From NCBI GenBank assembly GCA_963377175.1, contig CAUJNA010000170.1, positions 1 to 64,000 on the forward strand: 64,000 nucleotides of DNA. The letters run 5' to 3'. Below, piece by piece: positions 4,414 to 48,700 of this stretch. Every line of letters starts with the position of its first letter. The first letter of the stretch is position 1. The notes under the pieces were generated by a model. The model did no database searches. It saw only the letters and a list, made by a program, of their open reading frames with translations, and was not told the DNA's origin. This DNA comes from Effrenium voratum. Taxonomy: Eukaryota; Sar; Dinophyceae; Suessiales; Symbiodiniaceae. The position numbers and the translations under genes are program-made.

Positions 4414-4506
<93 letters not shown>
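4288..4506 (+). repeat. compound tetranucleotide microsatellite
   Basis: Three successive pure tetranucleotide tracts: (TTTG)n to about 4344, (TTGG)n to about 4405, and (CTTG)n from about 4417 to 4506. Each differs from its neighbour by one base of the unit. All frames on both strands are open, which creates false ORFs of poly-VCLF or NKQT type. Confidence 0.95.
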
Positions 4507-4507
<1 letters not shown>

Positions 4508-21700: not shown

Positions 21701-24700
21701 GTCCTGGGAGTGCTCCAAGTGGGCACGCTGGTGCCTTTGGCGGGGTTTTGCGAAGCTTTTTCACAATAGGTGCCATAGCCTCTTTTTTTGTTTGTTGGGT
21801 TAGTGTGATTCAAAATAGAAAGGATCCACTGGTTTAGATGGGTTTTATTCTATTTTCCAGGGAATCCCATCTATTTAACCAAAAAGACACCTATGTTTTT
21901 CACTTGCTGCCAGACTGATCACCTCGCGGTTCCCAGCTTTCTCCGACTTTGTTGCTGCGCAGTGGGAGGGGCCGAAGGCATATGGCAGTGGGTCAAAAGC
22001 AATGGTTCCATCTTGGTTGGTAGGTGAATTCACCACACATTTTAGAACCTATTTTAGTGGTTGGATTGGGTCCCGTTCGCTGGGGGTACGGGCTTTGGAT
22101 TTTGAAAAGCCCATGACCACATCCCACTAGCAGCTTAGCTTTAGGGATCAAGCCACCGAAGTTGGCCAAGTTTGCCCTTTTGCCCTGGGTCTCCTCCATG
22201 TCCCTTTCAAACAGCAAACAGTGGGCTGCGTTTGCCAGGCCGAAAAAACCCGGGCTGCTTCGAAGCGTTCCTAGAAGAGGATTTCTCAAGGGTAAAGAAT
22301 TGGATTGGCAAGTCATTTCATCAAAACACGGGTAGATGAAGGTTAGTATGGCACGATCCCAACCATAAATAGCTGCGGCCGCCTTCTTAGTTCTTTACAT
22401 GGTCAATTTGTGTTCCGGGTTCTGATTTTGACTCATTTCACTTTGAGAACCAAATGGACAACCATCATTTCCGGGCCCTGCTTTGACAGGTACCGATTTC
22501 TTGGATTTCTGAAAATCGTGAGACTAAGCCTTTGGGAACCCGACAGCATCCTGTCGACGAAAGGAGGCGCAATGTTTCTCGCAGGTTTTGGTTGCCCCGC
22601 ATTTTTAAGCAATGCTCCTTTCAGTCCATATATACACAAGAGATATAATGTACACGAGAGATATGATGTACACACTTCATACAAGCCATTTCTTTGCCCC
22701 CTGGGCCGATTTCCGGAAAGAGAATGTGGCACAGGATGAATGGTAGGGGTCCCGGGTCTCCCATCCGCGGGTACTTCCCCTTCCAGGGATCCTTCTGTGA
22801 CAAAACTCCCAAACGGCTTCCTCACAGAACCAGACTAGTGGAAGAGGTACAAAAACCAAACAAAAGAGAAGAAAGACAAGGCACGATCAATCGTTTCATC
22901 GCTTCCCCAAAGACCACCAAGGCTTTGCTGGGGCGGGGCAGGAGGGTTTAGGGCCCCGAGGCTGTTGGGGATGGGCGTATTGTTTCCATCACGCGCTGGA
23001 ACAGGTGGGATCCCTTTTTCGGAGCCCTGTATGGACTGTCCTCTTTGGGTTTGTTAGGATAGAAACAGACGGGTTCCACCGGGATAATTGAAATTGGCTT
23101 GATGCCATCCATTTGCCAGGAAATCAGGACGCGTATGCCTGTGTTTGGCTTTCCCTTGGTTCACAATCACTGAACCAGGGTCCAAAGTAGTTCCGCCTGC
23201 CCGAAGCAAAAGAGGAACAAGCTCCCCAGTAGTGCCCTTCCTCACCCCTTTTTTGGTTGGGAGGGTTCCCCTACTAAAATCGATTACCGAAAAAAATGGT
23301 ACCCTTCCAACTTCTCTACTGGAGGACCTGGTAGAAATAGATGGATTCCACTGTGTCAGATTGGCTTCATCCCATTTACCAGGGCCCTCGATTTTTTCCG
23401 AAAGGTCACCCCTGGTTCCAGGGGCCTTTTCATGGTTGTCCTTGGGAAAGATGTTACAGTTTTGCTTATTATGGCTTAGTGGTTGAAATCCAACCACTTG
23501 CTAACATGTTAATTATCGCTCCCCTTTCAACGTCAACCAAGTTTTTGTTGGTCGCCCGGAATGGCGGGTTTTCAACGAGGGCGGCAGTTTCGGGCCGCTA
23601 TATAGGTGAAGCTCATCCCGGTGCCGGTGATGATCGGGTTCTGCAACGGCCTGGCGCTGGTCATCGGGCTCGCACAGTTCTCCAACTTCAAGGCGCGGGG
23701 TGTAGTTCCCATGTGTTTGTTTGTTGTTTGTTTGTTTGTTTGTTTGTTTGTTTGTTTGTTTGTTTGTTGTTTGTTTGTTTGTTTGTTTGTTGTTGTTGTT
23801 TTTTTCTCCCCTTTTTGGGTTTTGTTTGTTTGGTTTGTTTTGGTGTTTCTCTCTTTTTCTTTTTTTTGGGGGATGTTGTGCCCAAAGTTTTTGTTTGGGG
23901 GGGGGGAGATATTTTGTGCCAGAAAATGCTGAAATCTATAGAGTTTATGGTCTGTTTTTTGTCTTGAAGGGAGTCTATTACAACTGTGTTTGTCTCTTTT
24001 TCTTGGGAGGGGAGCGGGGGAATTTAAGAACCCGGACTCACTCCCTGAGTTCATGTACTTTATACTTTTGGGGTTTGGTCCATTTGTTTTGTCAATCCAC
24101 TCAGGCAGTGAGTCCCAGGTCGTGGTGGGGCGGAATGTTGAGCCCGTTCGCCCGCTTGCTGTTATTCATTTATTTTGTTTTATTTTTTGGGGGGTCATTT
24201 TGTTATTTTATTTTTTAAGGGGGGGGTCGTGTTTTTTTTTTTTGGGGGGGGGGGTCATGTTTTTTTTTAAAAAAAATATTATTATTAGGGGGGTCAAGTT
24301 TTTCTTTTTTTAGGGGGATCATGGAATTCAGTCACATTTTCGGGTTGGACCATTTTGGCAGACTAAAAGTTCAGGAGCTGGCCGATCCACTCAGGAAGCG
24401 AGAAGGCGCAGTTCCCCCCACCTTTCTGTGTCTTTTGTTTTTGGTGGGGGGAAATTTGGTGCCTGAGAGGTGTCCACCTTTTGACCAAGAGTTTGTTGGT
24501 TTTTTCATGGTGCATGTTTAATGAGAGGGATATGTTCATGTCCTGTTGGCAAGTCAGAATGTGCGGCAAAGAAGCCATGGCCTCTTTATACCAAGGCTTC
24601 AACCGCTGGTTTCTTGTTAAACCACAATTGTTTAAACACACCTCCATTTGGTTTCACTTTGTTTTTGGGGGCATGTACTTTTATCATAGCATGTTTCATG

Positions 24701-27700
24701 CCGAAGCCCAACGCGGCTTTTGGCTCAAGCTTTTCAATCCGGCAACTAGCCCTTGCAATTTCGTCACCGCGCACTGCGGCACGTCACGCTCATCTTCGGC
24801 AAACAGTGCCGCTGCTGAGCGCTCGTGGTGGTGTTTCCGGTGGAGGTTGGTCGGGGGTTCTGGTTGGGGTTGGTGCGCATTTGGTTTGCTTTGCTTGCTT
24901 CGCTGCTTTGTTTGCCTGCTTGGGTTGCTGCTTTGTGCTTGCTTTCGGTTGTCTCTGCCCTTGCTGGGTTCATTCATCTTTTGGTTAAAGGCACCCTGTT
25001 TTGGTTCGTTGTTTGTGCCAGCCGGGGGCACCGCTTTGCCCTTGGGACTGGGGGACTTAAACAATCTCTTCTTGTTGGTGGGATTGGGCCTGTTTATTCT
25101 CTCCCGAAACTCTGTTTCAAACCCTCTCGCAGGTTATCAGCCGTAGGATTCGTCCTCGGTTGGCACCGCGAACCCCTTTCTAACAACCCTGCAGGCATCG
25201 TAGGGTAGTGTAAATAGTATGGCGGGAATCACTGAGGATGGACCTCATGTGGTGACCGATGAATGGGTTCTCGGCCAGGCCGGAATCTTGGACGTTGTGA
25301 ATGACGACCAAGTGCCCGGACAGCCGATGTTTTCCGGTCCTGACTTTTTGTCGGACCACTCTTTTTCAGAAGCAATGCCTTCAGGAAGATCCAGTGCTAC
25401 TCGCACTGATGAGCTATCGTCTAATGCTTCAAGAGCTAATCGCTCTCAGGGTCATGGGGCTAATCGTCCTGACCATGATGATTCCGTCTCAGGACGTGAT
25501 GATGACGAGCCCGGTATTGCACCTGGAGCTCAATCCTCATCTTTCCCGGAGCTGATGAATATTGGTCAGTCCGAGTTTCGTGACTCTCAAGTAGCAGTAG
25601 ACCTGTGCCAACCAGCAGTATAGTTTTTCAAGCGCTCGGTAATCCCGAACCTGGTACATCCAGTGGAGTTGCATTCGATGTTCATCTGCCGACCGAATCC
25701 GGTGGGCTCGATTGGAGAGCCTCATGGCCCAACGACGGAAACATTTTTGGTATGGATTTTGCCGCATGGATGCCAGGGCCACCCGCCCCGTCATCTTTCC
25801 CGCATTTCCAAAGCCCAAAACGAGCTGCTGGAAGTGATGAATTCATGCTACCTTTGTCGATTGAGAATCTCAATCCTGATGTGGCCAGCCGTAACGTCAG
25901 GCCAAGACCGTCGGTAAACCCGACCATGAGGAACATGTCTCCTCCCCCGGGACTTTCAGGATTTGAGAGCCCTAGGGAGCGTAATATCGTAGATAGATTG
26001 GATTTGCATCCCAGTCCAACTCCAAGCAAACGATCAAGGTCGAATTCGACTGGATCGCATAGGGCAAGGGGGATGGATCGGGAAACTGCCCACAGGGGTA
26101 ACCCCAGTGCGCGGGACTCCGGACGCGGACGCGGTCGATCAGGTGATCCAGCGTCGATCATTGGTAGAGACCCGCTAAACGCGGACACACTCGTTAACGT
26201 GCTTGATGGGATCGAAGCATTCCAGGAGGAATTTAGTAGGTCAAGTGGCTTGAATGCCCAAGGTGTTCGCCCTACGCCCAACGCGGCTTCCTTTTTCGCT
26301 CTGGACAATATGGACGGAGCTAATGTTCCAATAGAATCTGAGTCCATGATGGCATCGAGTTCTAGTCGCAATCATACCATCAGTAATGCAACTGATATTG
26401 AATCGATGTCTGAGTCTAGAGTGTCCAATGCGACCGACTTGAATGACATTGTTATTGCTGACTCGAGACCTGATGTTCCTATGCGAACGGATAGGCCTGT
26501 TATTCCTAAACTATCCGTTGCCAAAGGCCTGGGCATGACACAACCCTCTGCGGTTCGTGATGCTAGGAGATCTGCTCCGTATCAGAGTCAATCTCCTAAT
26601 CGGAGTGAGTTCCCACGGCCATCAACGGCCGTCCAGGATGTTTTCAGAACTCCTCCGAGATCTAATCCAATCATGGTTGATTTGTCCACTCCTCGAGATC
26701 GCGGATCAGGATTTGGTCCTGCGAGTGAGGAGCAACCCAACGAGGTTGCTGATCTTGTAACAGCCCTTGAAAGAGGGAGAGTGGATTCTTCGGTAAGTGC
26801 GATTATTCATCGCCTGGTTGCTAAGGTCGAAGACCTTGGGCGTAGGAATGATAGAAGTGATCAATGCATCAAGCAGCTCTCCACTGAGGTCAACTCGTGG
26901 AGGGCCAAGTACGATCAATGCGTCCATGTGAGTAGCACGTGTACACAGGCTGCGAACGCGGCCATGCAGCTGTCACAAGGGACTAAGGACATCGTGACCG
27001 AGCTTGGCCAACGCGTCAAGATCGTTGCCGATCGCATGATAAGCATAGGCGATGCCCTAAACGAGCGAGCCAGCTACGATGATGTTGCTCGCTCCATCAC
27101 CCAGGTTCAAACTGTTTTTGAATCTCTTTCTGATCGAGTAACCGGGCTTATAGCTCGTGTTGATATGATCGAGAGATCTCTAGTGGAGAGCCAATCCAAC
27201 CATCCTGCGATTGGTGGAGTAAACCTCAAAATCGAGGACCTGTCCACTAGGGTATGTCAGATTGATAGGATGATGCAAGATGTCGAACAACGCTGGACCA
27301 ATGATAGGGACGGCATAAAGTGGGTTAAAGACCAACTTTATGAGACACAAGCCAACCTTGAGATAAAGTCAAGGGACTGCAAATCCTACACGGACAAGCA
27401 AAATACTCATAACATGGCCGTTTCGACTACGCTCAACAGTAAGCTCGAGCAAATGCTCGAGGTGCTGGGTAATACGGCCCAGAAAATTAACTCCCTCGAA
27501 TCAATGCACTCGAGCCAGGCCTCAAGTAGTATCAAGTAGTGGATTGAACGATCACACAGGAGGAAGGCGTGCCGCGTCCCGTACTCCGGATAAGCGGCCA
27601 CCTCCTCCTGGCCCTCCTGATGATGATCCTCCACCGCCTCCTCCTCCAGATTGGCAAAGCCCAGGAGGAGGGGGGAAGAAGAGTGCCGCCGGTGGGAACC

Positions 27701-30700
27701 CTGGCAACCCTGGTAAACCCAGATGTAAATACATAGGTGATGGATATAATCATCTCATGGCTGAGTTTCACTGCAAGGGATGCAGAGGTGATATTTGTGA
27801 GTATTGCTTCTCATTTAAAGAGAACCTGTGCGAAGAATGTTCCCGTAACGGGCCCCGATGCGGAGTCTGTAGGGAGAGCTCGTTCCTGACCAAGGGAATT
27901 GAGTGTCAGTTTTGTAAGACCTACTACTGCACCAGACATTCTGCTGGGCAGGACGACTACAGGAGATTTGGATTTGTCCAGGGTCCCTGTTGTCTTGCGT
28001 GCCTAAGGGACGAAACTAGGAGAAGAAGGGATCCCGATGGTAACCGTGTCAGGAATAGGTCGCCTGGGGGCGTACCTGAGGCGAACCCGACGCGGTCGTT
28101 CTCGCCGCCTCTGCGGCCACCCGTTGACAGATTCCGTGACACCCCAACTGGGGGTCAACCCAACGCGGCTGACCTTCAGAGTCCTCCGAAGGCTACGCAA
28201 CCCGTGCCCCTGGATAAACGTGAAACCGGATATTATCCAGGATTTGATCCCAACAGTACAAGGCCAAAGGATCCTTCAGGCCTTGAGCCGCCGACCATGC
28301 GTGGCCCCGATCCTCCTGACAAGAAATGTCGGATGTGTGATCGGGATATTCCTGACCCCAGCAAAATTGAGGAATGTAAGATATGCATGAAAAGGGCATG
28401 TGAGATTTGCATTCCGAAGGCTACTCGCCTTTGTCCTGTATGTGCATTATCAATCGGTAGTTCTCAGGTTCCACAGCATCTTTTCGGAACTGGTGGCGGC
28501 GGGTACAGTAGCCACCATGATCCGAACTGTACAGCTGCGACTAAGTGCATTCCCATAGACCTCCCGCCAGAGCCCGACGCGGCTGGGCTGAGGGTATGGA
28601 TAGCCAATATGAAGGAAGCTGTTAGCAATGCCTACAGCTATGATGGACTTTACGTCATCAATTGGCTAACTGAAGTCGAGAAGGCAAAGACCTTTGATGA
28701 ACTGGATGGGGAATGTAAATACCACATCCTTGAAGCCAGGTTCAATGCAGCCATTCGGAAGTGCATCAAGACTGTTGCAATTATCGATAAGATTAATCGT
28801 CTCACCGAAGCCGCTCAACGTTCCAACAATCGCATCAAGAGTAGGCAGAGCCTGTGGCTCTTATACGACCACTTAAGGACTGCAAATATCGGAGAGCAAT
28901 CATTCAGGATAATCGAGCTCTCAAACTTGCGATGCAGTGTTTCATCTTTCTATACTGAAGAGGAGCGACTTGAAAGGTTCATCGCGAAGTGGGATCATAT
29001 CCTTGCGGGTCTCGATGAACCGCTGACCGAGCAGGTAAAGCGGTCGCTATTCAGTGAAAAGGTTAGACACCTCAACTGTTTGGCTCATGATATCAGGGAA
29101 TGGGATAGGAACATATCCAATCCTGATGTTTGTAGCTATGAATGGCTTCGTGCTCGTTGCAAGAACGAAATTGACCGCTGGAGGGTTCGTAAGAATCAGG
29201 TCAATATGCACAAGGACTTTTACGAACGATCTCAGTCCAGGGACAGAGCCCAGAAACCTGGTGCTCCTGGTCCTCCCGTCCGGAGACGATCTCCGTTTGG
29301 AGATTCCCATAGGCCGAGTCGGCCTCCTAGCGATCCGAGGAAGAGGACCGGTAATACCCCAAGTCCTCATCGAAGGGACAGGTACTCTCCCAGGAATCGG
29401 GAGCAGGACAAGCGGCGTACGCCTAGCCCTAGGGGCGAGCCTCCAAGGAGGCCCAGGTCTACGTCGCCCGGTGCTCCTGCGATTGATGCGTGCAGGGACT
29501 TCGCGCGTGGATACTGTTCGCGCGGACAAGAGTGCAAATTCGCACACACAAGAACTGGGAGTTCCGACGCGAAACGCAAGGAGCGTCCTCCCCTGATTCC
29601 AGGGTATTGCGCTCAATGGGTCTCCTATGGAAAGTGCATGAGGGATAAGTGTGATTACAAGCATGCAAAGCCACCTGAGCATTTGCTGAAAGAAGCGAAG
29701 CAACACACTGCGGCCCCAGCGACCGAGTCTGCCGATGCGCAACCCGAGTCTGCTGAACCTACTACCACTGCTGACGACAGGACATATAGTCCTGCCCCTG
29801 ATTTGTCAGCGGGTTTTTGAGAGGGGCGGGCCGTCACCCTCAGGCTATAGGGCTTGTTGCCTGCCCTGCTCATCCCATAGCCAAGGCATATGAAGAGTAT
29901 AGAGCTCGGTTTCAACGCCCTGAAGGGACAATGGAGTGGTCAGTGACCACTATTGGCGCTCGTACACTGCAAGGTACATGTCCGGGCGGCCCGAATATCA
30001 GAGCTGTAATTCGCAGACGAACGATTCGTCTCTCGGACAACGCTCTGATTGATGATGTCGATTTGAGTGTACCGACTCGCAAATCCGTTTTATTCAGACG
30101 GATTCCTGGGCCAATTGACATTAGGACGGATTTCTATTACCTGCCCGGTAAATGCGGCCAGTATAACTCTGAGCTCGCGAAGGCAGTGAGGATTAAGCTC
30201 ACTGCTCGCAGGCTGAGTTTCAATGACAATGCTGAAATTCAGCAAGTTGAGAATATAAGGACACGTGACGAGCCTAGGCCGATCATGAATCGGCGGTCGC
30301 ATTCTCACCCCATTCACCCGGATAGGTTGCGTCAACCTCCCGAGGTGATTGCGATGTCCGAGGAAAATGCTAGAATCCTAGCTGCCACTACTAGACAGAT
30401 TGTACAGTTGCAATTAGGTGAGTATGTGCCTGATAATAGGTGGGCTCGTCGCCCTCGAATGATCAGGGAAAATGTTCCTGATCAGATGCCTGCTATGCCT
30501 GGCCCACAAATCGAAATCCGGTGGCTTGCTGACACTGGGTGTCCTTTCGACTTGGTTGGGATGCACGACATTCCCGCGCAGGATCATCGCCACATCAAGA
30601 ATGGGCGAACCCAGCATTCCTTGCAGACCGCAAATGGTGTTGCTGGGACTCAAGGTAGAGTTGATGCGACTGTTGAGTCACTCGACGAGGATATTGAAGC

Positions 30701-33700
30701 CTTCGTCATGGGTAATACACCCTCAATTGTATCGATAGGGCGTAGGTGCGTGGATTTTGGATACAGTTTCCGGTGGGATGCTTTTGAGACGCCTGTTCTC
30801 ATCTGCCCATCCGGGAGAACTGTTAGGCTCGACGTTATAAACAACGTCCCATACCTGCCTAAAGGGCCGGTTATGTTTGGAGCCCCGAACCTATAGACGC
30901 ATGTCCTGCGATACCGGCAATGCCCGGTCCGGTAATTGCCATGAGCGACTCACTGTACCCTGCAGCTCCCTCTGAGGCCGACGCGCCTGACGAGGGGGGT
31001 GAAATTGTTGAAATCAAACACCCTGAGGGCTACAGGACCGAAGCCCAGTTACGTGCTGAAGCTAAAACGCTTCAACACATGATGTCACATTTGCCAAAGA
31101 ATCCTTTTTGCCCACATTGCCAACGCGCAAAGATGGAGAACGTGCGTTTGCACCGCCGGGGCGGTGCCGACGCGCATGAATGCACGAAATTCGGTGATAT
31201 TGTCACTGTTGACACGATGGTGTTACACGGTTTAAAGGACCGTGGTGTGAATGGTGAAACGGACGCAGTCGTGTTTTACGATCTTGCGACCAAGTACATA
31301 GATGTACTCCCTGTTTTTAGTCGCTCTGTACCTAATACGGTAGAAGCCTTTCACAAGTTTATGGGTCCCGAACCCAAGATTGGTCTGTTATACTCGGACC
31401 AAGCCAGAGAGTTTCTTGCGGCTACTCGCCGAATGGCTTGGGTGCATCACATGTCCACACCCGGAATGCCAAAGACGAATGGCATCATTGAAAACAAAGT
31501 GAAGCTAGTTCTGCATGGAGCAAGAGTACTCCTCAGACAAGCCGGCTTATCGCCCAAATGGTGGCCATTTGCCGTTCGCGCATTTTGCGCGGCCAGAAAT
31601 CTCGAAAATCGAGGTGAAGGAACCGCATGGGGAAAGAGAAACGATGACAGGGATTTTCCCGGTCAACTCATCCCATTCGGATGTCTTGTTGATTTCAAGC
31701 CAATCGCGCCAAAACCGCGTAGGCTCGAAAAGGGGGGGCTCAAAAACGCCTCCGAACGGGACGACCATCACAAAGCTGATGAAATTCCTACAAAAGATCA
31801 CTGGATCTTCGATGAAGAATCTGGCAAACTCGTCAGAGTGCACGTTGAACCAAGGACTAAGCTATTCAAAGCTGACTGCGTTGATGCTCCAATCGAGCAT
31901 ATTCGTCTCACCGCTGACCGTGATACATGGGTTCAGTATGATGAGGAAAATGGAGAAATGATGCACTCCGTAGACTGGAGATACGGTCCAGATTCCACCA
32001 AGGAGCTAAAAGCCCCGTGGACTGGCGAGACGTATTTCACTGTAAAGCCAAAAGAATTTGACCCTCTTGAGGACTCTGATTACGAGCCCGAAGGAGATGA
32101 TGAACTAGCTGATGATTCAGGGCCGTCCGATCACGGAGAGGACGAGTACAGTAACGTGCCCGCTATGCCGGCACAGAAGATTGACCCTGCATCTAAAGCG
32201 CCCAAATTCGGGCCAGTGTCGAAGCCTGGGATTTTCCTGGGTTATAGATTAGAGCCCGGTGGCCAGTGGAAGGGCGACTACTACGTTGCCGATCTTGAAC
32301 ACTTTAGGAACGGATTTTCCCGACCCAGTGTTCACCAGGTCAAAAGAATTTGGCGGAACCCCGAAGAGGGATGCGTTTTTCCCATGTTGGCCGCCTATGA
32401 GCGTCTGACTGGGGAGGTCCAGCTCCTAGACACTGGAGAAGGAAAGGGTCTTCCCAAAGCGGATGCTCCCACTCAACCAGACAGCAAGCTCGATGCCGTT
32501 GGTCCGGGTACTGATCATCCTAACGATGACAGTGGTGATCCCGTTTTTGATTCCGAAGCACCTGCTGATGTTCCTGAAAGGGACCACTGGGTGCGTGATG
32601 AAGAGTCTAAATCCTGGCACAGACATCATGTCGATGCTAGGCAAGCCTTTTTCGGGGATGATAGATCTCCACTGCCTCCAGGAGGCCCGTCCCAAGCGGA
32701 TGTGGATGATTATCGTGTAACTCATCTGAAGTACATTGACTCTACGCAGCAGTGTATCCGTGATGACAGGAGAATCCTGAACCCTGGACATCGAGTCAGA
32801 ACTCAAAAGTTCTGGACTGGCGTGACCATTCTGTATGATAAAGGGCATGCTCCTTCTAGGGCTCCGAGGGTCACTCTTGCCAAGTTTAAAGATAGGCTAG
32901 ACAAAGTCAAAGACCTCGATGCAGGTGAGCCTAAGGCCCACACCCTACACGTTGATGAGCTTGATTACGAGCAGAAGGAGAAAAGAAAGGAGAGGTCCTA
33001 TTCTGGATTAAACCCAACTCCATTTCTTCTACTGACTGGAAAGGTATGTCCGTCGGTATGCGAAGGATATACATCGAGGCTGAAAGGGAGGAAGCTCTGA
33101 AACGAGCGCGTGCTGGCGAAGCCGCACCCTCCAAACCAGCTGGACCCGCTGTGATAAAGCGGAGATTGTTGATAGAATTTGCATGCGAACCTGACTCTAA
33201 GCTCTCCGCCACAATGCTGGAACAGGGGGGTGACGCGATTCGCGTACACAAGGAGTCGTTCGACATTTTAAAGAATAAGGATATGACTAGATTGATTGAG
33301 ATAGTCGATCAGAATCCTGGTTGTGACTTATGGGGCTCGATCCCGTGCGGACCGTGGAGTACTTGGCAGTATGTTAACTTGTCCCAGTACGGTCCCGAGT
33401 TCGCTGTAGAGCTCAACGAAGCTAGACGAACGTCGATGGTCATGTTTGCTGCTTTCCTTCGTGTCGCCAAACGCGTGCGTTTTAAGGGAGGTAGAATAGC
33501 TTTCGAATGGCCGAGGCATTGTCTTGGTTGGAAACAGCCATTCATGAGGCGTCTAATCGACGATCCCGACATCAGGTGTGTCGATGTTGACGGTTGCGAC
33601 TTTGGAATGCAAACGTCCGATGGTGTTCCCATCAGGAAGCAGTGGCGGATCGCCACTTCTTGCCCTGAACTGGCCAACGAGCTACGAGGGCGTACGTGTA

Positions 33701-36700: not shown

Positions 36701-39700
36701 GAGGGAATTGGAGCAAGATCAGGCGCGCACGTGACCAGGTAGAGCAGTGCCAATCATGTCTAAACGACTTAATTGAGCACGCGCTGAACACGGAGTTTTC
36801 CGTAGGCATTTTCATACAGCCAAATACCTGGATTGCTAATCGCGATGTTCTTGTCAAGCTTGGCGTAAACCGCTATAGCCGTGTTGTACACTATTGCTCA
36901 TGTCTTGTAAATAAAGATCATGTGCATGCATTGACATTAATTTGTATTTCACGACATGTGAACTCTTTCCCAGTTTTCAAATGCAACAGGATGTATCGCA
37001 CTACACGTGTTGATCCTCTTGTGCATGACTTAGTTGTAAAATATGCGACCCGCGCTGCTCTTCAAACAGCCTTGAACTGAGTAGGCTTGTTGGACATCAT
37101 TCACAACAGCATTAGTCATGCTGCAATAACTAACGCAAATTCGCGACATTAGTTCAGGCACATTCGCCTCGATTTGATGGTTTGTGTTTGTGTCATTTTC
37201 CGCTCGGGTGGGCATGTCCATAGGGTAGCTTTGCAGTTTCATGTGTAGTGATGTAGCAGGGTTGTTGTCAACGCACGACTGTTTATCATAGGTACGACCA
37301 TATTCGGTCTTATGCCAGGGGAAATTGCCCCTTCGTACCCATAGAGATGGCACCCAAGGTTTACACACCTTTGGATGTGGAAGGTTTCCCTGTTTTCGGG
37401 GTATCTTCCGTGGTATTCTTTGTTTTAGTGGTACCCTACCGCTTCCCGGGCGCAAACTCGCGCCATGGCAGCGGCTGCATCCGCGGCCGGCGGAATGGCG
37501 GGCGCTGCCCCGCGCTCGAGAGGTTCATCTTTGGCGGCGCGGCAGCAGGCGGACTATATGAACCCTAACTGCGCCTACACCTTTTGTCCGCTTCCAGCGG
37601 AAGCCAAATCACTCAGCCAATGCGCTTTCAGATGAGAGGCCTACTCGGCTATCGGAAAATCTTAGAATTTGCTACCCGCACTTGACGGCAAAGTCCGATC
37701 AGTACGGTTATCGCACCACTGCTGAGACGCAGTTGGTGCAAGTCAAGGACGGTGTCAAGGACCCTCAGGTTGTCGGTGCCTTTTCCGGCATTTTCAACCT
37801 ACTGGAGGGATTTGACACGGGCATGATTGGGGACAAGTCTTTCGTCCCGGCCATCAAGAAATACCGTCGCCTACGCGTGGCTGGTATTCTCCAGGCCATG
37901 CTTCTAGGTGAAGTGGAGCTGAGTGACCAAAGCGTCTACACGGCTGCCATAATCATCTGCGAGGCAATGCCGCGCGAGCCCGAGCTCCACTGCGAGCCAA
38001 CTCGGAACTCGCTGATCGAAATGACATTGTCTACCGCCGTTTCCCCTTCACTGGTTCCCCGAGGCGGGAACTGGCTGTACGAGATGGCGAAGGTCGACTC
38101 ACGCTGGCAGACCTTTTTCCAAGCGGCGAATAAAAATGTTATTCGCGCCATGCAGGCGGCCGTTGTAAAGGGTAGGAGAGATATGCCCTCGAATGTACAG
38201 CCGGCAGGAGCCGAGGAGGCATTCAAGGCCTGGGCATACCAGCGCCCAACTGCCCTTTGTACCCCACCCAAGGCGGTGGTTGGGTATATGAAGGCAATTC
38301 ATTGCATCTCGGCCGATGCGCTGACAAAGATGCAAACGGTCAATGCACATGCTTTTGAAGTAGGATCCATGTGCAAGGAGATTGAGGCCTTGTGGTGCTC
38401 CTATGACGATTTTGTGGATTTCATCACGGATGAAATAGGGATTCCCCCCACCATATTTCACCTGATTGACTGGAAACGCGCTAAGCCGCTTACCATGCCG
38501 AGCAAGGAAATCGGGGATTGGCACGCCGGTGATCCCGTGCTTGAACGCGACGGGTATCTAGTGTTCCCGATGCGGCACTGCACAGAGCTCAATGCAGCCA
38601 GCATGCACGAGAGATGGGTTCATGGAACACAATTCTCTTCCCTATGGAACATATTGGGCCATGGGAATGCCGTTGCATCGCTCGGAGATGCCGACACGCT
38701 AACAGGCGTGTGGACATCGACGAAGCCCGTTTGTCTTGAGAGTTATTACTCTTGTCTCAGCCATATTGGCCTGGGCGTAACCGTCCGTCTGGCACTTTTG
38801 CTACGCCCTCTCGGTAAGAACGCCCACGAGGCGTACAAGCATACTGAGAAGGGGCCTGCACACCAACGCGTGATAAGGCAATTCCGCGTTCGTGTCGAGG
38901 CAATCGCTCTCAAAGAAGAGACGATTGGTGAAGGGACGTCTGCTGTGGCGGGGAACTTGCTGTCGCATAACCCTGCCACGCACCTTTGGAACCCTGTGCT
39001 TGAGGTAAACCCTCATTCGGCAGAGGTCGGATGGATACGTCACGGCGCCAACCGCGTAGCGCTGACCATTGGGGCGGAAATTCCCGCCGGGTCGGTGGCA
39101 CGTGAGGCGTCGGTTCCCCCGGCCAAGCCCGGCGGCGAGGTGGACTTTAAGTTCTTTCCCCAGGAGATCCGCGAAGTCGGCGAGGTACGATGCTGCCCGC
39201 TGTTCGAAACCTGGGAGCACTATGTTCCCGCATCGGAAGGAAAGTTCTTTCCATTGGCTGGCGGCCTTCCCTTTTCAGGGGCTGCAAAGCTCATGTACCA
39301 TGTGCCAGGGCACGCGGTAGCGGCGCTGGCCAACGCAGCCACTCAATGCAGTGAGTTCATGAGCGCGATCAGCGGTAACATCTACCCTGATCGTCAGGAC
39401 CGCCAACCGTATGAGCTTGTGCGGGAGATGTGGGAATCATGGGCGTTCAGTGTCCGGGCGTACATTATTTCCATGATTTGGCCCGTAACGGCGATGGAAT
39501 ACGCCGGCTGCGAGGGGCCGGACAATTTGGGGTTCGTTCTCACAATGCTGGGATACGTCAACCCCTCCGCTGCGGCTGGCCTATGCGCCGAGCTGCTAAG
39601 CGGATGCAAGCCAAACAAGGTCTCTTACATAGGTGTAGAGGGATCTCGTGTTGTGGTGCTGGTTGGACCCTCACACTGGGTTACCGGCAGCGCGGGTCAG

Positions 39701-42700
39701 TCCATTACTGAAGCAAAGCTTCAGGAGCAGTGGACGACCATCCGGACAAAGCTCCCGGCCAAAACCGGCGAATACGCGCTGGAGGTCGTGGAGATTGAGG
39801 AGGAGACCTCAGTAGCTGAGCTCCTCCGTACCGTGGTCAGCCAGAAACTAGCTGACCCGGTACATGCAGGTGCTCCTGCGGGCGCTAAAGATGATATATT
39901 CATCATCTTTACCAAATGCCTGTGGCTGACCGAATGGCGCAAGTCCGAAAACACGTATGGTCCCAGCCCCGATGCGGGTAGGATCATCGATGAAAACATC
40001 GATGCCATGAAGGCGTTCGCCAATAAGGGCGGCCGGAGCCAGGCACCGACGATAATCTTGTCGGGTCCGGGCATCGTTTGGCATGGGACAGCCATGCAGG
40101 AGGTCGCAACCACGTTTTTCATGAAGTGCCGCGACGCCGGTTTCCCAGCCTACCCATCCAACGCGATGTGGTTCGGCTGCTCAAAGAAGAGCCTAAACGG
40201 CGGCGTTGTCGGTCTCGAAAGAGGCGGACACCAGTTTATGGGTCTTGTCTCGGCGTTCACCGACCTGGTGTGTCTGCTGAGGCGTGAGTACTCAATGAGT
40301 GACGAGGTCCGGGAAGCCCTGGCCCTTGCTCTGGATTTCTTGGTAGAACAGGAGCTTCTGATGAAACCATCGGAGTCATATCTGAGCGCTGCAAAGCAGT
40401 GCGGAGTCGGGGCAGGCCTCACACCGGTCGACCGGTGGTCCTCATCTGAGGATGCGCCATGGGCGGAGGTAATCTCTGCTCCTAGAACGATGTCGAGTGG
40501 CCCATGCGCCACAAGCCGTGTGTCGTCGGCCAAAGCGCCTGCCGCGGCCGATGCAAGAGCGTCTGAGCAGCAGTCTGCTCCTCGCCCCAACGCGGGAAAT
40601 GGGCCACAGACAATGGCTCAGCGCGTCCGGTCCTCGACGCCGCCCGCAACGGGGAGGCAGAGGCTGGGCCAAGCAATGGCCGATTTCGGCCAGTCGGCCG
40701 CAAGTCGCGGTCTCTCGCCGGCTGTTTGCGGCAATCAGAGGGGAACAATACCTGCAAAGCCAGCGCAGGCGTGCGGGTATAGCCCGACCACGACTGGTGG
40801 TCCGTCTAAAACAGGCGGCCACAGAATAGATTTGAAGCCTGCTACCGGGAAGCAGTTGTTGAAGGCTAAGCCTGATCCTCCCGAGCTTCCCAAGGACGCG
40901 TACTCCGATGACTTTCCGTCCCTGTCCAAGCGCGAAGCCGCTAACAGATGGAGAGGTGGGGCCGCAAGGGGTCCCAGCTGCGCGCCACCTAAGGTGGGAG
41001 GGTCGTTGCCGTGCCTGTCTTCGGCCGCTGGCCCTCCGCCAAAGGGTGCCGCTCCTTGTGCTAAGGGACCCGAGGTCAAAGCACCTGAGGTCACGGGCCC
41101 ACCCGTGCCTAAAGCGGGAGGTGCTGACGCACCGACCGATGGGGGTTCGGGGGGATGCGCTCCCGCGAATAGCGAGATCACCTCGGCCCGAGGTTCCACC
41201 GCGGAAGGCAGTGAAGAGCCCCCCGGCTAGCCTGTCTGAGCCGGCGAAGCCTAACCAGGCGGAGCCGCCACCTAAGCGTGGGGACAGCGTTCCAGATGTC
41301 GCTGGTGGGGATAATCCTCAACCAGGAGACAGCACTCCGTCCCTGTCGACCGATGCGTCGATGGGGATGGCTTCCCATCCCGAAGCATCCATACCCGTTG
41401 GTCAGGATGTACAGCCCGAACTTGCGGATGCAGGCGGGGCCAAAAGGGCTTCACCCAGCCAAGGCGCTGCGGGTGGAGACAATGATGGGGACGGCGATGG
41501 GGCGGAGGGAGATTCCCCTACCTCCCCTGCCGATGAGCTCCCGGGCCGCGACGATCCTATGGATGGGAGCGGGACTGGTGGGGATGGTGGACCCGATCCA
41601 CCCGATGGCGACGATGATCCGTCTGAACCCGGAGACCATGAAACTGGTCCGGATTCGGAATATTATGCGCCCGCTGAAAGCGCGGATGCCTGCATCGCAG
41701 TGCACTACCTGTTCCGGAGAGCAGGTTACCCGCCAGCGTTGGCGGCGTGGAGGAACGGGGCCTGGCCAAGGCGCCTTCTTTACCCTATTCAGGCTAATTC
41801 CATTGAGGATGCCCTCGCTCTACCTCTGTGGCAAGGCCTGTCAGAGGATGAGTTTTTCCAGCTGCTGGACAATGCTTCAGCAACTGATCGTCGCTTCGGC
41901 GAGTACGACTGGGATTTCCTGTCAAAGGCCATTATGTCTGACACGATGAATGCCGATGAAATTCATCACGCGGGAGCCAAAGCGCTTGCTGATTGGGCTG
42001 AGGAGAACCTTGGGCCATTGTCGATTGGCCCTCGGTCGGACCTGGTCGCACGGTTTAATCAGATGCAGACCGAGGGGAGGCATCCAAACAGGGAATCGGC
42101 AAATGAGTCTAGTGTCGGCTCAGGGAAACAATATGTTCCCCGTCCTCCGCTGGAGGATCAGCCGAACTCGAACCAGATCTCCGCCGACGTATTCCGCGGT
42201 CGGGAAATCCGTTTGGGGCTCACTATGCCTGACTCCCAAAGCGGAGATGATGAGCTCAGCGCGCAGGACGCAACGTGGAACGTTGAATACTGCGACTTTT
42301 ACAAGGCCGCCGCGAATCTGTGGCGTGCAAGATCATGCTTGCGCGAAGCCGCAGGATGCATGATTGAAACTGGGTATATTCACCCTCAGATGGCTGCGGC
42401 CATTGCGGCGACCGAAAAGGTCGAAAGATTTTGTAATGTTCTTCGGGCTGCCAACCGCTACGCCGGTTTAGGCACGTATCGATTCAATGAAATCGTGGGC
42501 AGGAATCTGCTCAATGGATACGACGGCTGGAGAACACCTCCGAGGGAGGATGACCATCCCGAGTTCCTTGCTCGGGAAGTTGAGGACGTTTTCCGTTCCT
42601 ATTGCGCGGGCCTTTTGAGGTCTGAAAGCTTCGACCTCAAGTCCTGCGTAATTGAACCGGAGTCGGAGCCCAAGGCGGAGCCGGCTCCCAAAATGAAGCC

Positions 42701-45700
42701 ACCTCCTCCATCTCTGTCGGCCAGTAAGGGCCTTCCTAGGCGATCGGCGCCTGCTGTCCATACTGGGTCGGCACACACCGCCAAGCGTCCGCGAGAGGCT
42801 GGCGGTTGGGAACGTGCAGATCCCAGGGCATTATTACGGCAAAGCCCGTACCAAGGAATCCCCTGTTCAACCCTCTGAACCGCCAATGGGCGGAGCAAGG
42901 GGGAGCGCACAGCCGTCCGAAATGGATGTGGACAAGGAGGGGAATAAGGGTGACGAGAAGAAGGACAAAGCGGCCAATGAGGCTGCTGTAGCGTCAAAGA
43001 GCGCAAAGCCGCATCCGGCGAAAGCGTCGCGTCCCGAGGCCCTAAGCGGCTCGTTGGATGTGACACTAATCAGCGACGTACGGGAGCGTGATCGGGATAT
43101 TTCCGATGACGAGTATTCCCCTACGAACGTGTGCATGTTTCCAGAATCATGGGAGGGCGCCATGCCGACCTCCGTGATTGACAAGGCCGGAGGCTTTGAG
43201 CAGTTTAGGAACGAGCTCATGAGGATCCAGAGAGTCCTGGATTCTCCGGCGTTGGTCGACCTTGGTAAGGTCGATCTGGACGCTCTGGGCGAGCCGCCCA
43301 AGGAGTACGTCTCGGATGAAGATCACGAGAGTTATGTAGACGATGATGGAATGGGTCCATATGTGGACAAATTCTCATCAATGGGTGACCGCGACCTAGT
43401 GCCCTCAAAGCAGGAGCCGCCTTACTATGAGGCAAAGGCGTGGCGCACCACTGAAGAAGAAATTGAAAGGATGAAGAACCTTTTTCCATTCTTTCGTGCC
43501 GAAAATTATCGGCTTATGTCTGCGAGTACTGGTCCCATAGGTACCAAGTCGCACGTACAGGGCGTCCTCCCAACAGGTGCGTCGTTGGAAGAGGCACTGA
43601 TGGCTAAGCCCGGTGTGTGCCCGATTACGAGCACCTACAACCTCACATACGAGGGTGAAGAGGTTGTGATTGATGCACAGGGCGGGATAGCAGGCAGAAT
43701 CGCCTGTCCTGCCGGAAATGACATCTTCCATTTTTTCCCCGAAATTAGGGATGTGTCGGCGTTTGTTGGACGAAGCTCCAGGGAATCGCAAATGCTGCTA
43801 GAAGTTTTGTCGGGCAACACTGACCCTACGCGGTTAAACGTGAAGCCCGGTGAGCAGCCTCCCTTCTTGTTTGGGACGGTTCCAGACATTCTGGGAGGTT
43901 GGATGTCAATGACTCTGATCTCAACGCTACTTGAGGCCCTATACGGGATCCACAAGTGCACGAGTGTCGAGGTAGCGACCTGGGCGGGTGCTCTCGCAAA
44001 GGAAAGCCCATCGTACCCTCCAGTCGAGCTCCTAATACGGACAGTCTGGAGGACAGATGGCACGAGTGTGCGCCCGAATGAGGTGCTTTTTGCGCGGTCC
44101 ACCCTAATCGGGAGGGACGTGCCGTTCAAAGTTTTCAAGCGTTGGGCACTGCGTGACCGAACGCCTATGGGGCCTTTGCTTAGGCCGATGGGAGCAGCAG
44201 AAGTCCCTTATACGGGATACGTGCTGCTGACGATGGCCGAGTATCGGTCCGCCCTCAAAACGAGGTGCATCCGGAGGCCTGGCAAATTCGCCATCACAGT
44301 TTTCCCCATGCGACCTGAGCAGGTCTGCAGGGGGGAGATCATGATTGGGATGGAGGGCGCAAAGGTGCCTTTCCTCAAGTTGCCCAGCCCCAATAATGAG
44401 GGCGAATTTTATGTTGACGACCGCGTCAAATACATGGACAAGCGCCATGTCGTTGTGGCCGTTGACCTAAAGTGGATGGCCATCGAGGAAGCCGCCGGCA
44501 TCTACAAAACCCGACGCGGTTTGATCGCCGTGCGGGAAGAGATACATGCGCCATTCTGGCGCGCATGCTATCTGCATCAGGAAGGGGATGTAATATACAT
44601 CCGCCCCTGGGCGGTCCGTGAGTTGAATGTTCAGGGACCGCGGAGAGGGGTGTCATTTTCATGGGACAATGCTCCCATGCATGACTACTGGTGCCCTCGG
44701 TGCGCGCATTTGAACATGTATGGCACCATTCTATGCAATGGTTGCCATCTGCCGATTTTCTATCGTGAATGGGTGCCAGGCACCGTCCGCGCTCTGGTTA
44801 AGCATGGACAGCCAATCTGGCTGAGCGAACTCAAAGCAGTCCGCCCCAGCAGCTGGCATGAAGGGGAGACCGACGCGTGGGCCCCTCTCATGGCATCGGT
44901 AAACCCGATTCGCGAGGTGGTCAGCTGCATGATCACCGGTTTGCGCTGCGCGCCGCATCTTGTGCACGTTCCCAATGCGGATATTGTGCAAGTTGCGTTT
45001 CAGGAGGTTGCAAAGGTCACCTCAAAGGACACTCACGCTTGTGTGCGGGCGAGTGATGAGGCTCTCGAGCGGTGGGTAGCGAAGCAGCTGCTCATCGAGG
45101 AGAGCAACACTGGCGTCTCGATTCCCGACAATATGTCTGTCATGGCATATTTAATCGAGCACCCGCAACAGGCGGCGCAATGGGGTCGTCATATGACGAG
45201 AAAGGGCAGTCTAAATTCAGCATTTGCCCTTTACCTCTCTGTGCATATCTTTGATGCCTACCGCATCGGGATTGAGGACGGGTATTTGGTTCCGCTGTAT
45301 GGCCTAGGCGCCTCACGCGCGGACATCATAATGTCGTTGGTACAGGCTGAGCGACGCCTCACGGACTTCAATACTGAAGATCCGAGTTTCGACGCTTCCA
45401 CTGTTCTTGATTGGAATATCGACTCTTTGCGGGCCAGTGGTGGATCCATCACGGCCCCAATTGAGTATGCTGAGGCATACATTTATGTCGAAGACAATAA
45501 GGTTGACATGGTCCCCGCTTCGCGGCGCGACGGCCAATGCGCCATTGTCTTTGCTGACCCGCCGGTTGGGAAGCACCACAGGCGGGCAGCCACTCCTAGG
45601 GGAGACCAACGGTCTGCTACCCCGCGACCTGAATCCAGGTCAAAGGGTGATCAGCAAAAGGGCAAAGCCCCTGCACAATCCTGGCCCAAGGGCGGAGGTC

Positions 45701-48700
45701 ACAAGGGTGACCAGTTCCCAGGAAAGGGTCACAAAGGTGATCAGTACAAAGGCAAGGGTGGCCAATACGGCTACCAACAAGGGCAGTTCGGTCGTGGCGG
45801 ATCCGCCAGATCGAGAACTCCCACTGGCGGGTATCAGCCTGATGCTCGCGGGTCGGGATACAAGGGTGCTCAGGCAGCCCCTTTCCCGTTCCCAAGTCCG
45901 ATGTACCCCGCTTTCCCAATGGGAGGGTACATGCAACAGCCAATGGCTGGCATGATGCCGCAAATGTGGCCTGGCGCAATGCCGCAGGGTTGGCAGCCGC
46001 ACATGCAGGGTGATCCCCGCGAGTTCGAGAATCCGAACTCGCCGCATACCCCTACCTGGGGTGCGGATGATGAGTTGGCCGAGACCGTGCCTCCTCCTCC
46101 TGGGGACTGGAACGTCAACAAGGGGAGGGGACGGCACGGCGGCGGACGACATCGGTGATACCTGATGTTCGTCTGCTTCCTTTGCGTGGCGGCGCCAACG
46201 CGCGCATGCCTTCATTCCGGAATTCACATAATGGACTATGCTCCTTGTAGTATTTCTGTGTTTGGGCTATTCGCCATTTCGGAATTCAACTGCATGCGCA
46301 GCTGTGCGCTATTCGCGCAGGCAGCGATTACCTGTCAGGTGTATGTCGCCGCAGCAAGGAAGTCATCCTCGGCGGCGTCTATGGCCGCTGGTGATCTGCT
46401 TTCTCCAGCACCGCTGCTGCTGCTGGTGATGGAGCTCATCAAGGTGCTGTGGTGAGGATCACGGATGCGCTGCACCGCTGCCGGTGAGGTCCTATTCGGA
46501 CCTGAACCGCTGATTGCAGCTGGTGGTGTTCCTACCGAAGGTCTTTGCGTGATCGCGCGCCTAGACGGTGCTAATTTAAAGACCGTGGTCTTGTGGTCGA
46601 AGCACCACGTTTCAACCAGTGGGCCAATGCGCCTAAATCATGAATTCAGGAAATAAATCCACTCGAACCTTACGGTTCGATGTGGTTGCAGTGCAAATGT
46701 ATTTTTATTTCATGCCTGCCATTCTGGAGTTGAATCTTTGTTTCTGTTTCTTTTTGCTTTCTCTTGTTTGATTTGGCTACCGGCGCGAATCCGCCCCATA
46801 CCCGTAATTCGGGGTGGTGGCGGGATCCGGGCACCAATGAGTGCCCGGGTATGGGGCCGCGAACCCTGGTAGCCTAATCGGCTCTGTTTTCTTTTTATTT
46901 GCTTTTCAACTTCAACATGGCCAATGCGCCCTTCCAAATTCACTCCTTCTCTTTGTACAGGCGAGGAAGGTGTTTTTGGGGGCATGTACTTTTATCATAG
47001 CATGTTTCATGCCGAAGCCCAACGCGGCTTTTGGCTCAAGCTTTTCAATCCGGCAACTAGCCCTTGCAATTTCGTCACCGCGCACTGCGGCACGTCACGC
47101 TCATCTTCGGCAAACAGTGCCGCTGCTGAGCGCTCGTGGTGGTGTTTCCGGTGGAGGTTGGTCGGGGGTTCTGGTTGGGGTTGGTGCGCATTTGGTTTGC
47201 TTTGCTTGCTTCGCTGCTTTGTTTGCCTGCTTGGGTTGCTGCTTTGTGCTTGCTTTCGGTTGTCTCTGCCCTTGCTGGGTTCATTCATCTTTTGGTTAAA
47301 GGCACCCTGTTTTGGTTCGTTGTTTGTGCCAGCCGGGGGCACCGCTTTGCCCTTGGGACTGGGGGACTTAAACAATCTCTTCTTGTTGGTGGGATTGGGC
47401 CTGTTTATTCTCTCCCGAAACTCTGTTTCAAACCCTTTCGCACACTTTCTACGCCCCAGTGGCCATCCTTGTCTTGGTCTGACCCTCTCAAAAGAAACAC
47501 GACGCGAGGAACCATGAAGCAACCAAGAACAAAAACAAACAGGAGGTATGTTTGGGGTTGACCGGGGGGGTTCACCCCACCCGATTTTGGGACTTTGTGG
47601 GAAAATTGGATTTTAGCACATCGGACCCGCATTCCCCCACCAAAAAAGAGGCTCACCTTGCACTGGCGGCAGGGTGTTCAGTTTACAATCCACCCTTTGA
47701 TGGGAACATAGGGGTTGATGAATATTCCTGGCCCCAAATGACCATGGGTAACTTTTCTCATATATCTTTGTAGTGGTTGTTCAACCTCTGATCATCCCAC
47801 GTATCACGGACCTTTTGATCAACCCCCATAGGTTCACCCTGAGGGGGGTTTCGGCCTGGCCGGAAGGGACGTTTTGGCCCGGACGGACAGGAGACGTTTC
47901 CTGTAGGTTTGGAGCTCCATTTCGGAGCCACGATGGAGGACAATACTGTGGATGGACGAAATCCTGCACCACTTTGAAACCATGGGAAGCCATTGGTTTC
48001 TTGGGTGGTGCAGGATTTCGTCCATCCACAGTAGGTCCATTCCAGGTGAGAAACGGCCCCGCAAAGAGGACACAAATTCAACTTCGGGCCAGTCAAGAAG
48101 CCACCCAAATACCAGCTGATTTACAGAGTTGCCTAAGTGGCTTTCGGATGTATCCTTTATGGGTTCCATAGGTGTTGAAATGGTTAGGTAACCCTTAGTA
48201 GTAAATGGGAAACCACCCTGTTCGAGGCAAGCTGAAACAAAGGCAAAGCCCAGGATTTGTTAGAACTTTGGTGGTTCCCAGCCATCCCCTTAGGTTTATA
48301 GGTTTTTGGTTGGTTTAGTGGTTGGGTTTCCATTTTACCCACAAGTTGTTTTTCCGTTTTTGGCCGGGATCAGTTTCTAGGTCCCCCAGCTAGGTGCCCT
48401 TTCTCACCACTTTTTTCGGAGAGGGTTCCTCTACTAAAATAGACTACAGAATTAAAGTTGGTACCCTTATTCTAACCTCTCTACTGGAGGACCTAGGTTT
48501 GGACAGCCCGGATTTGTTCGAACCACGGGCCCAAGTCTGTCAGGACCCAAAGGCGTTGGACATGTCGCACGGGGAGGGAAGGCGCCTCGACGCCTTCCAT
48601 GCCTTTACAGATGGGGCGCCCTTCATCCAGGGCCAGGAGACCCGATGCTTCTTGGGAGGTGTGTACTACGGTGGGTGGGCAAAACCCGTTCGCACCACTT

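Follow-up and report, generated by a model that had tools for sequence, protein, structure and literature searches.

A giant variant of Ty1/copia in a dinoflagellate genome

Introduction

Giant LTR retrotransposons have been described among Ty3/gypsy elements, namely Burro of planarians, with an internal region of up to 25 kb, and Ogre of legumes, and the word 'copia' does not occur in that source's passages on giant elements (PMC6431247). These passages agree with a preliminary description of the DNA studied here, which had remarked that known giant LTR elements are mostly Ty3-like. The retrotransposons that bear a DNMT domain include SymbioLINE-Dnmt, SymbioDIRS-Dnmt3 and KnitGypsy-Dnmt3, the last of which is under purifying selection (Ka/Ks < 0.2); Symbiodinium copia elements are stated, in the excerpted text of the same source, to lack any DNMT domain (PMC5890265). 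LTR elements with a dUTPase are reported in excerpts on fungal gypsy and bdelloid elements (PMC2864245, PMC5408684), and an excerpt of PMC9298759 reports 'retrovirus-related dUTPases' as expanded in Symbiodiniaceae genomes. Heat-activated Ty1-copia retrotransposons have been described from Symbiodinium microadriaticum (Chen et al. 2018, as summarized in PMC11453091).

Here, we describe an element in a 64,000-nucleotide stretch of Effrenium voratum DNA (the window) that is a new giant variant of Ty1/copia. It very probably represents a single insertion of a giant Ty1/copia-type LTR retrotransposon family that was recently active in a dinoflagellate, the host being probably a member of the Symbiodiniaceae.

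Results

Boundaries, size and class of the element

The element and its flanks have the following parts.

24660-47442, + strand: giant LTR element, 22,783 bp
24655..24659, no strand: left target-site duplication CACTT (flank inspection)
24660..25131, + strand: 5' LTR, 472 bp, TG...CA (LTR comparison)
46971..47442, + strand: 3' LTR, 472 bp, TG...CA (LTR comparison)
47443..47447, no strand: right target-site duplication CACTT (flank inspection)

The locus had been described as a 22.8-kb element whose LTRs differ at one base and which lies within a CACTT duplication, and this holds: the gap-free LTR alignment is identical at 471 of 472 positions, and the junctions read CACTT, LTR ... LTR, CACTT. 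The internal region is 21,839 bp long (22,783 - 2 x 472) and measures 20.0-21.8 kb in six other full copies, which places them in the giant class (>20 kb, PMC6431247). The order of domains in Pol was confirmed as PR - IN - RT - RNase H, and the earlier assignment to Ty1/copia on this order is upheld because gene order, motifs and relatives agree, with the Pfam score of the reverse transcriptase (RT) under its cut-off and the integrase uncalled. The word 'complete' applies to the structure but not to the coding sequence, in which small indels break all three frames. 'Very recent' stands in relative terms only, as LTR pairs are 99.6-100% identical within seven full copies.

The family in the host genome

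We searched the host genome with the LTR and scored the best 40 of 514 candidates. Of these 40, 26 form 13 pairs and 14 are unpaired within this set. The pairs are spaced 20.5-30.9 kb apart (12 of 13 at 20.5-22.3 kb), and all 13 have perfect 5-bp target duplications, in 12 different sequences. Six further whole copies can be aligned with the window element over its entire length, so the preliminary description's proposed check, whether other full-length copies share the gene order but sit in target duplications of different sequence, came out in its favour. Mosaic copies occur. Copies lacking the segment at 37.4-46.2 kb, which the preliminary description had named as a refuting outcome, were not seen among the seven full copies: ORF3 is present in all of them, once with a 1.6-kb internal deletion. 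Gag, Pol and ORF3 are under purifying selection (dN/dS 0.08-0.31). For the family this gives a minimum of 13 copies with paired LTRs, and an ORF3 piece is present at 127 places or more.

Gag, Pol and the frameshift site

The features of Gag and Pol are as follows; the open reading frames (ORFs) are measured from stop to stop in copies where they are open, and both are interrupted by indels in the window copy.

25375..29820, + strand: ORF1 (Gag), 1,486 aa
29488..29703, + strand: two CCCH zinc fingers near the Gag C-terminus (Pfam PF00642, PF22628)
29811..29817, + strand: slippery heptamer G GGU UUU, just 5' of the ORF1 UGA, identical in 7/7 copies
29802..37080, + strand: ORF2 (Pol), 2,426 aa
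30441..30860, + strand: aspartic protease region (WLADTGC), by motif; limits approximate
31079..31700, + strand: integrase, HX3H...CX2C finger and D, D(30)E, by alignment; 3' limit approximate
33157..33825, + strand: divergent C5-cytosine methyltransferase-like domain, by predicted fold; PC of motif IV and E of motif VI kept
33946..34335, + strand: dUTPase (PF00692), E 1.4e-36, profile positions 2-129 of 129; PDB dUTPases match
34681..35235, + strand: copia-type RT, YVDD box (PF07727 E 1e-4, under cut-off)
35836..36300, + strand: copia-type RNase H (YCDADLAG...KSTSG), by motifs; 3' limit approximate

The ATG of ORF1 sits behind an acceptor-like site, TTTTTCAG, and the encoded N-terminus is of low complexity. 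The usual finger of Gag is CCHC; the CCCH fingers here score 27.5 bits with PF00642 (cut-off 20.5) and 25.4 bits with PF22628 (cut-off 27). ORF2 lies in the -1 frame relative to ORF1, and downstream of the slippery site we found no RNA structure beyond that of shuffles (z -0.66, 0.15, -0.07).

The domains of Pol follow one another as PR - IN - C5-MTase-like - dUTPase - RT - RNase H. The integrase, encoded upstream of RT, was not called in a Pfam scan of this Pol; when five proteins were compared, two canonical copia integrases aligned with it at E 2e-4 and 4e-4. RVT_2 (PF07727) scores 22.4 bits against a cut-off of 31.6 in this Pol and 16.5 in its nearest relative, P0012, and exceeds the cut-off in the relatives P0019 and P0043. 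In a FastTree phylogeny of 43 RT sequences, of which only four were canonical copia and one gypsy, the element groups with dinoflagellate copia-like proteins, and YVDD is present in 40 of the 43 aligned rows. For the dUTPase, 150 of 947 candidate places in the host genome were scored; all 150 exceed the family cut-off, and 127 lie in frames of >1,000 aa.

The region before the dUTPase is predicted to have the fold of C5-cytosine DNA methyltransferases, as judged from a structure model. Pfam scans of four proteins (Pol of the window copy, Pol of the reference copy, P0012 and P0014) listed no match to PF00145. Of 22 relatives, 21 retain the Cys of motif IV and 20 the Glu of motif VI, and the domain has 1-4 replacement changes in 194-200 codons in six comparisons with the reference copy. 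Motif I, canonically FxGxG, reads IEFACEPDS. An alignment of 11 relatives made for this domain lost its motif columns and was not used.

ORF3

Downstream of Pol lies a further long frame.

37465..46158, + strand: ORF3, about 2,900 aa where open, with its own ATG; indel-interrupted in the window copy
44203..44820, + strand: block weakly co-linear with the part of sister elements that holds a Tpt1/KptA-like domain and a zinc ribbon; active-site residues unrecognisable

No homologue was found among 5.8 billion proteins with whole ORF3 or residues 2010-2660 as queries, and ORF3 had no match in Pfam, PF01885 included, or in PDB. It is weakly alignable to the ORF3s of sister elements. In those elements PF01885 (Tpt1/KptA-type RNA 2'-phosphotransferase) exceeds its cut-off in four of five polyproteins scanned, and their Tpt1/KptA-type domain occurs at 150 places in the genome. 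An hmmsearch of ORF3 with the KptA profile gave E 0.02-0.1, and hhalign against sister elements gave probabilities of 15% and 24%, the better E-value of the latter reflecting a target set of one. We treat this possible likeness to the sister block as leads only. An alignment with P0037 was spurious and left unused, and a single-sequence model of an ORF3 piece was useless (pLDDT 30.7). Pairs of ORF3 counted from the upstream stop contain 0-2 stop codons; three pairs recounted from the ATG, two of which belong to that set, contain none. We infer that ORF3 is an accessory multidomain protein needed by the family.

Priming sites and a possible spliced-leader relic

Three short features lie in or next to the LTRs.

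25132..25176, + strand: presumed primer-binding region, starting GGTTATCAGCC; 45 nt identical in 7/7 copies
46960..46970, + strand: polypurine tract GGCGAGGAAGG, adjoining the 3' LTR
24719..24729, + strand: TTTGGCTCAAG, matching the last 11 nt (3' end) of the dinoflagellate spliced leader

Of the primer and purine-tract positions that the preliminary description had noted as present, the purine tract is confirmed at the 3' LTR, where the six other copies have GGCGAGGGGGG or GTCGAGGGGGG, while the primer site is positional only. The complement of GGTTATCAGCC reads like a tRNA anticodon arm; two tRNA search patterns gave 0 matches to a tRNA gene complementary to the primer region, and an Rfam scan of 24000-48000 gave 0 matches. 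TTTGGCTCAAG occurs at LTR position 60-65 in 7/7 copies and in 17 of 20,000 order-1 resamples of the LTR, and its sequence suggests a possible spliced-leader relic. An exact 12-nt spliced-leader end proved wrong as the conserved unit (12 nt in the window copy only, 11 nt in 7/7). The spliced-leader 21-mer occurs 251 times in the host genome and its reversed control 0 times, which identifies the host as a dinoflagellate.

Broken frames and the repeated left flank

Relative to another copy with open frames, the three ORFs of the window copy contain seven small frame-shifting indels, and this copy is probably not self-sufficient. Over 6,798 codons it differs from contig C3141 by 118 silent and 56 replacement changes, and by 0 stops. 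This is the same silent-to-replacement ratio as between other copies (454:213 and 358:166), and the private indels thus have no neutral substitutions alongside them. They may have arisen in the course of reverse transcription, or they may be errors of the assembly.

Window positions 1-25125, which span the left flank and almost all of the 5' LTR, recur on C3141, joined to a different element body, with no mismatch in the 5.4 kb compared (1-1964, 11664-13164, 23160-25125). The C3141 body is ~99% identical up to window position 46.1 kb, after which the 3' end and right flank differ. C3141 also carries CACTT at both sides. Its 5' LTR is 99.8% like the window LTR; its 3' LTR aligns with the window LTR in two pieces only (98.7% over 77 columns, 84.1% over 145 columns). 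The preliminary description had overlooked this repeated flank, as well as the broken frames, the frameshift site, the dUTPase and the methyltransferase-like domain.

Discussion

The four- to fivefold excess over the usual size could in principle mean an ordinary copia element swollen, in one or a few copies, by nested insertions or hitch-hiking captured host genes, and one of the 13 LTR pairs, 30.9 kb apart, probably does hold a nested insert. This reading is scarcely credible and already contradicted because gene order is common to the copies; moreover, the other 12 pairs fall within 20.5-22.3 kb, ORF3 is present and under purifying selection in 7/7 full copies, and a 311-aa ORF3 piece occurs at at least 127 places, at 12 of which the surrounding frame is 2,907-3,014 aa long. 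An assembly chimera, in which the two LTRs come from different insertions joined across a 22-kb repeat, would account for the recurrence of 1-25125 on C3141 with another body, 3' end and right flank, and for CACTT on both sides there too. However, the LTRs (471/472) and duplications of the window contig match, and the same architecture is found in twelve other LTR pairs, six read whole; we consider a chimera quite unlikely. Of the two contigs, the window's is coherent, since its LTRs match and so does its target duplication; there is a small chance that its left junction is an assembly join. C3141 is likelier to be the chimera or recombinant, as judged from its LTR sequences, because its 5' LTR matches the window's and its 3' LTR does so only in two pieces.

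Two further alternatives concern single proteins of the giant family. ORF3 occupies the env position, and an excerpt of PMC5408684 speaks of env-like ORFs in copia-type elements, so that ORF3 could be an envelope or other surface protein of a retrovirus-like (infectious) copia lineage. It matches no envelope or fusion-protein family, however, nor any Pfam or PDB entry, and sister ORF3s bear an RNA 2'-phosphotransferase domain instead, which makes this very improbable. The methyltransferase-like domain, in turn, may be a catalytically dead structural module instead of an enzyme, a plausible reading to which we give somewhat less than an even chance: the usual glycines are absent from motif I, motif VI has EWP in place of ENV, and the target-recognition part looks very short, but the Cys of motif IV (21/22) and the Glu of motif VI (20/22) persist among relatives and replacement changes are few in all six comparisons.

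For the giant Ty1/copia family we propose the following life cycle. Full-length RNA would be made from the LTR and Gag translated from it, with a fraction of ribosomes shifting -1 at GGGUUUU to yield Gag-Pol. ORF3 would be translated from its own ATG, probably off a trans-spliced or subgenomic mRNA. Reverse transcription would take place in Gag particles, primed next to the 5' LTR, while the dUTPase would prevent uracil from entering the long cDNA. The methyltransferase-like domain may mark the cDNA or the new insertion, or may be a structural derivative, and the integrase would insert the cDNA with 5-bp duplications. More speculatively, and rather doubtfully, the elements could form a distinct, modular dinoflagellate giant-copia clade with its own RNA/DNA-processing kit: a DNMT3-like methyltransferase giving the element's cDNA the same kind of mark as the host genome, which is heavily methylated, a dUTPase, and ORF3, in sister families a Tpt1/KptA enzyme that would clean the 2'-phosphate off a cleaved tRNA, with a half-tRNA priming reverse transcription. 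The genomic RNA might be trans-spliced, and the spliced-leader relic in the LTR might serve strand transfer.

These results show that elements of the copia superfamily can grow as large as those documented among gypsy and Penelope-type elements while staying evolutionarily active. A C5-MTase-like domain in a copia Pol would add another retroelement class to the captors of such a domain, in a host group for which the excerpted source says that the most abundant retrotransposons lack it. Because all 150 scored dUTPase places exceed the cut-off and 127 lie in frames of >1,000 aa, the family also offers an explanation for the expanded dUTPases of Symbiodiniaceae, as these are presented in the excerpt of PMC9298759.

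The heat-activated Ty1-copia elements of S. microadriaticum, known here by description only, share superfamily, host group and recent expansion with this family. Fungal and bdelloid elements likewise have a dUTPase within the Pol of an LTR element; as excerpted, they are gypsy or retrovirus-like, whereas here the element is copia and the dUTPase lies between the methyltransferase-like domain and RT. With the DNMT-bearing retroelements it shares a C5-MTase-type domain that lies within an ORF of a dinoflagellate or algal retroelement, and purifying selection, which is reported there for KnitGypsy-Dnmt3; in the source passages those are LINE, DIRS and gypsy elements, whereas here the element is copia and the domain too divergent for Pfam. 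Burro also has an internal region of >20 kb, and both Burro and Ogre, as excerpted, have extra domains and ORFs of unknown role; they are gypsy elements, in contrast to this copia element with LTRs of only 0.47 kb, and Ogre, unlike it, owes its size mostly to long LTRs. With Ty1/copia (Pseudoviridae type) the element has in common the LTRs, 5-bp duplication, PR-IN-RT-RNase H order, copia RNase H and YVDD box. It differs in its 22.8-kb length and 21.8-kb internal region, the -1 frame between Gag and Pol, the ~2,900-aa ORF3, the CCCH fingers in Gag, and the dUTPase and C5-MTase-like domain inside Pol.

The element is a family of giant copies

The window copy of the giant element is bounded by two long terminal repeats (LTRs).

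LTRs of the window copy
24660-25131, 5' LTR, 472 bp, TG...CA
46971-47442, 3' LTR, 472 bp, TG...CA

The two LTRs differ at one base and CACTT stands at either end of the 22,783-bp element, both as the preliminary description had reported. Searching the host genome with the LTR gave at least 40 scored places from 514 candidates; 26 of these 40 form 13 LTR pairs, and the other 14 had no partner among the matches listed. LTR spacing is 20.5-22.3 kb in 12 of the 13 pairs. The window copy and six others were fetched whole, while for the other six pairs the outer ends alone were used. Perfect 5-bp duplications flank all 13 pairs and comprise 12 distinct sequences, which answers positively the proposed check for further full-length copies with different target duplications. 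Within the seven full copies, LTR pair identity is 99.6-100%. A 311-aa piece of ORF3, the third open frame, matched at least 127 scored places (836 candidates) at 93-100% identity, with an internal stop in 4 of the 127. The element is thus a family and no accident.

The remaining LTR pair (C1691:494745-526108; 30.9 kb apart, perfect duplication CTTAA) is probably a full copy holding a nested 8-9 kb insertion. Copies are also mosaic: between the window copy and that on contig C2569, for example, divergence reaches 4.8% and 6.0% at the 5' and 3' ends, and is 0.1-0.5% across 15.5-21.5 kb. We infer that this mosaicism is as expected from template switching between co-packaged RNAs.

The window opens contig C170 of an assembly of 1.156 Gb in 3,699 contigs. 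A dinoflagellate spliced-leader 21-mer occurs at 251 places in this genome versus 0 for a reversed control, and 7 of the 51 Pol relatives are named as Symbiodinium proteins, which together indicate a dinoflagellate host, probably one of the Symbiodiniaceae. Among the matches listed, 42 of the 21-mers lie on a single strand of C722:109307-122977, spaced ~130 bp in places, a predicted spliced-leader gene array.

Three open frames, all interrupted in the window copy

One of the fetched copies, the reference, which serves for coordinates alone, has three open frames of 1,486, 2,426 and 2,946 aa, stop to stop (ORF1, Gag; ORF2, Pol; ORF3). ORF2 is in the -1 frame and shares 16 nt with ORF1, and GGGTTTT, which we take to be a canonical -1 slippery heptamer, stands directly ahead of the ORF1 stop, identical in all seven copies. 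No significant RNA structure was found 3' of this site in the window copy. Upstream of the ORF1 start is an acceptor-like site, TTTTTCAG in six copies and TTTTTCCG in one. A separate ATG opens ORF3, 357 nt past the ORF2 stop in the reference and 385 nt past it in the window copy. Across the 21 pairs of seven copies, dN/dS was 0.10-0.17 for ORF1, 0.08-0.20 for ORF2 and 0.14-0.31 for ORF3, and gap-free aligned ORF1 and ORF2 codons contained no stops. The ORF3 values argue that it is a maintained protein rather than ballast.

Relative to the reference, the window copy carries ten frame-shifting indels in the stop-to-stop frames, three 5' of start codons and seven within coding sequence. Six of these seven occur in none of the other six copies; the remaining one lies in a stretch deleted from one other copy. 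The element had been called complete, and this holds for its structure but not for its coding capacity, since ORF1, ORF2 and ORF3 are all interrupted.

An interior stretch of contig C3141 (416337-441461) duplicates window 1-25125, which covers the left flank and nearly all of the 5' LTR, with 0 mismatches in the 5.4 kb compared, and the two contigs diverge immediately past window base 25,125. The duplicate would reflect either assembly overlap or very recent recombination. The two LTRs of C3141 are mismatched with each other, and C170 reads as the coherent contig of the two. A 70-bp direct repeat (90%; window 23430-23499 and 50808-50877) flanks the element beyond the target duplications and is likely another dispersed repeat. 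The flanks also contain long TTTG/TTGTTTGC simple repeats (window 4261-4530 and 23714-23791), and six flanking ORFs of the window had no Pfam match.

ORF3 is probably a counterpart of Tpt1/KptA frames in sister elements

No ORF3 relatives were found in Pfam, PDB or protein databases. Against a profile from the tails of four Symbiodinium-named proteins, ORF3 aligned co-linearly in three blocks with 19.7 bits and an E of 5e-9 (target set of one), at an hhalign probability of just 24%. PF01885 (Tpt1/KptA RNA 2'-phosphotransferase) is present in six polyproteins of sister elements, above cut-off in four of five scanned and downstream of reverse transcriptase (RT) in all four proteins with RT also called. 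Tpt1/KptA is normally a single-copy gene. In this genome, PF01885 scored at least 150 places (558 candidates), 150 of 150 above cut-off, with 43 frames of exactly 1,114 aa among them by our own count. One such frame, at locus L042, lies behind a copia Pol ending in a predicted C5-cytosine methyltransferase-like domain and overlaps it by 22 nt in the single frame read. This arrangement and the weak profile alignment suggest that ORF3 is probably a long, divergent counterpart of the sister PF01885 ORFs, with no phosphotransferase domain recognisable in ORF3 itself.

Besides these 1,114-aa frames, of which at least one is an ORF behind a copia Pol, PF01885 places include another group: among the six best places, the long frames read (L034-L037) resemble, by eye, proteins of non-LTR (LINE-like) elements that have an OTU-like part. 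A search with PF00692 (dUTPase) scored at least 150 places (947 candidates), and 16 of the frames are exactly 2,470 aa long by our own count. Four loci were inspected; two of them, L047 and L050, are Pol relatives (55-70% identical), and the other two had no long frame on the strand read.

Proposed mechanism and comparison with known elements

Gag would form the particle, -1 frameshifting would yield Gag-Pol, reverse transcription would be primed beside the 5' LTR, dUTPase may protect the cDNA, and integration would generate the 5-bp duplication. The complement of the putative primer site includes an anticodon-loop-like CTGATAA, and tRNA pattern searches of the genome found no matching tRNA gene. 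Drosophila copia is primed by a half-tRNA, according to passages of PMC5371799; speculatively, KptA might repair a half-tRNA primer in the sister families.

In the parts consulted, a review of giant transposons covers gypsy giants and Penelope-type Terminons with 0 occurrences of 'copia' (PMC6431247). The combination is unreported in titles, abstract openings and passages on giant or largest copia, methyltransferase domains in dinoflagellate copia, dinoflagellate retrotransposons and dUTPase, and Tpt1/KptA in retrotransposons, a scope outside which most subscription papers, including Chen et al. 2018, fall. Within that scope, we class the element as a new giant among Ty1/copia retrotransposons.
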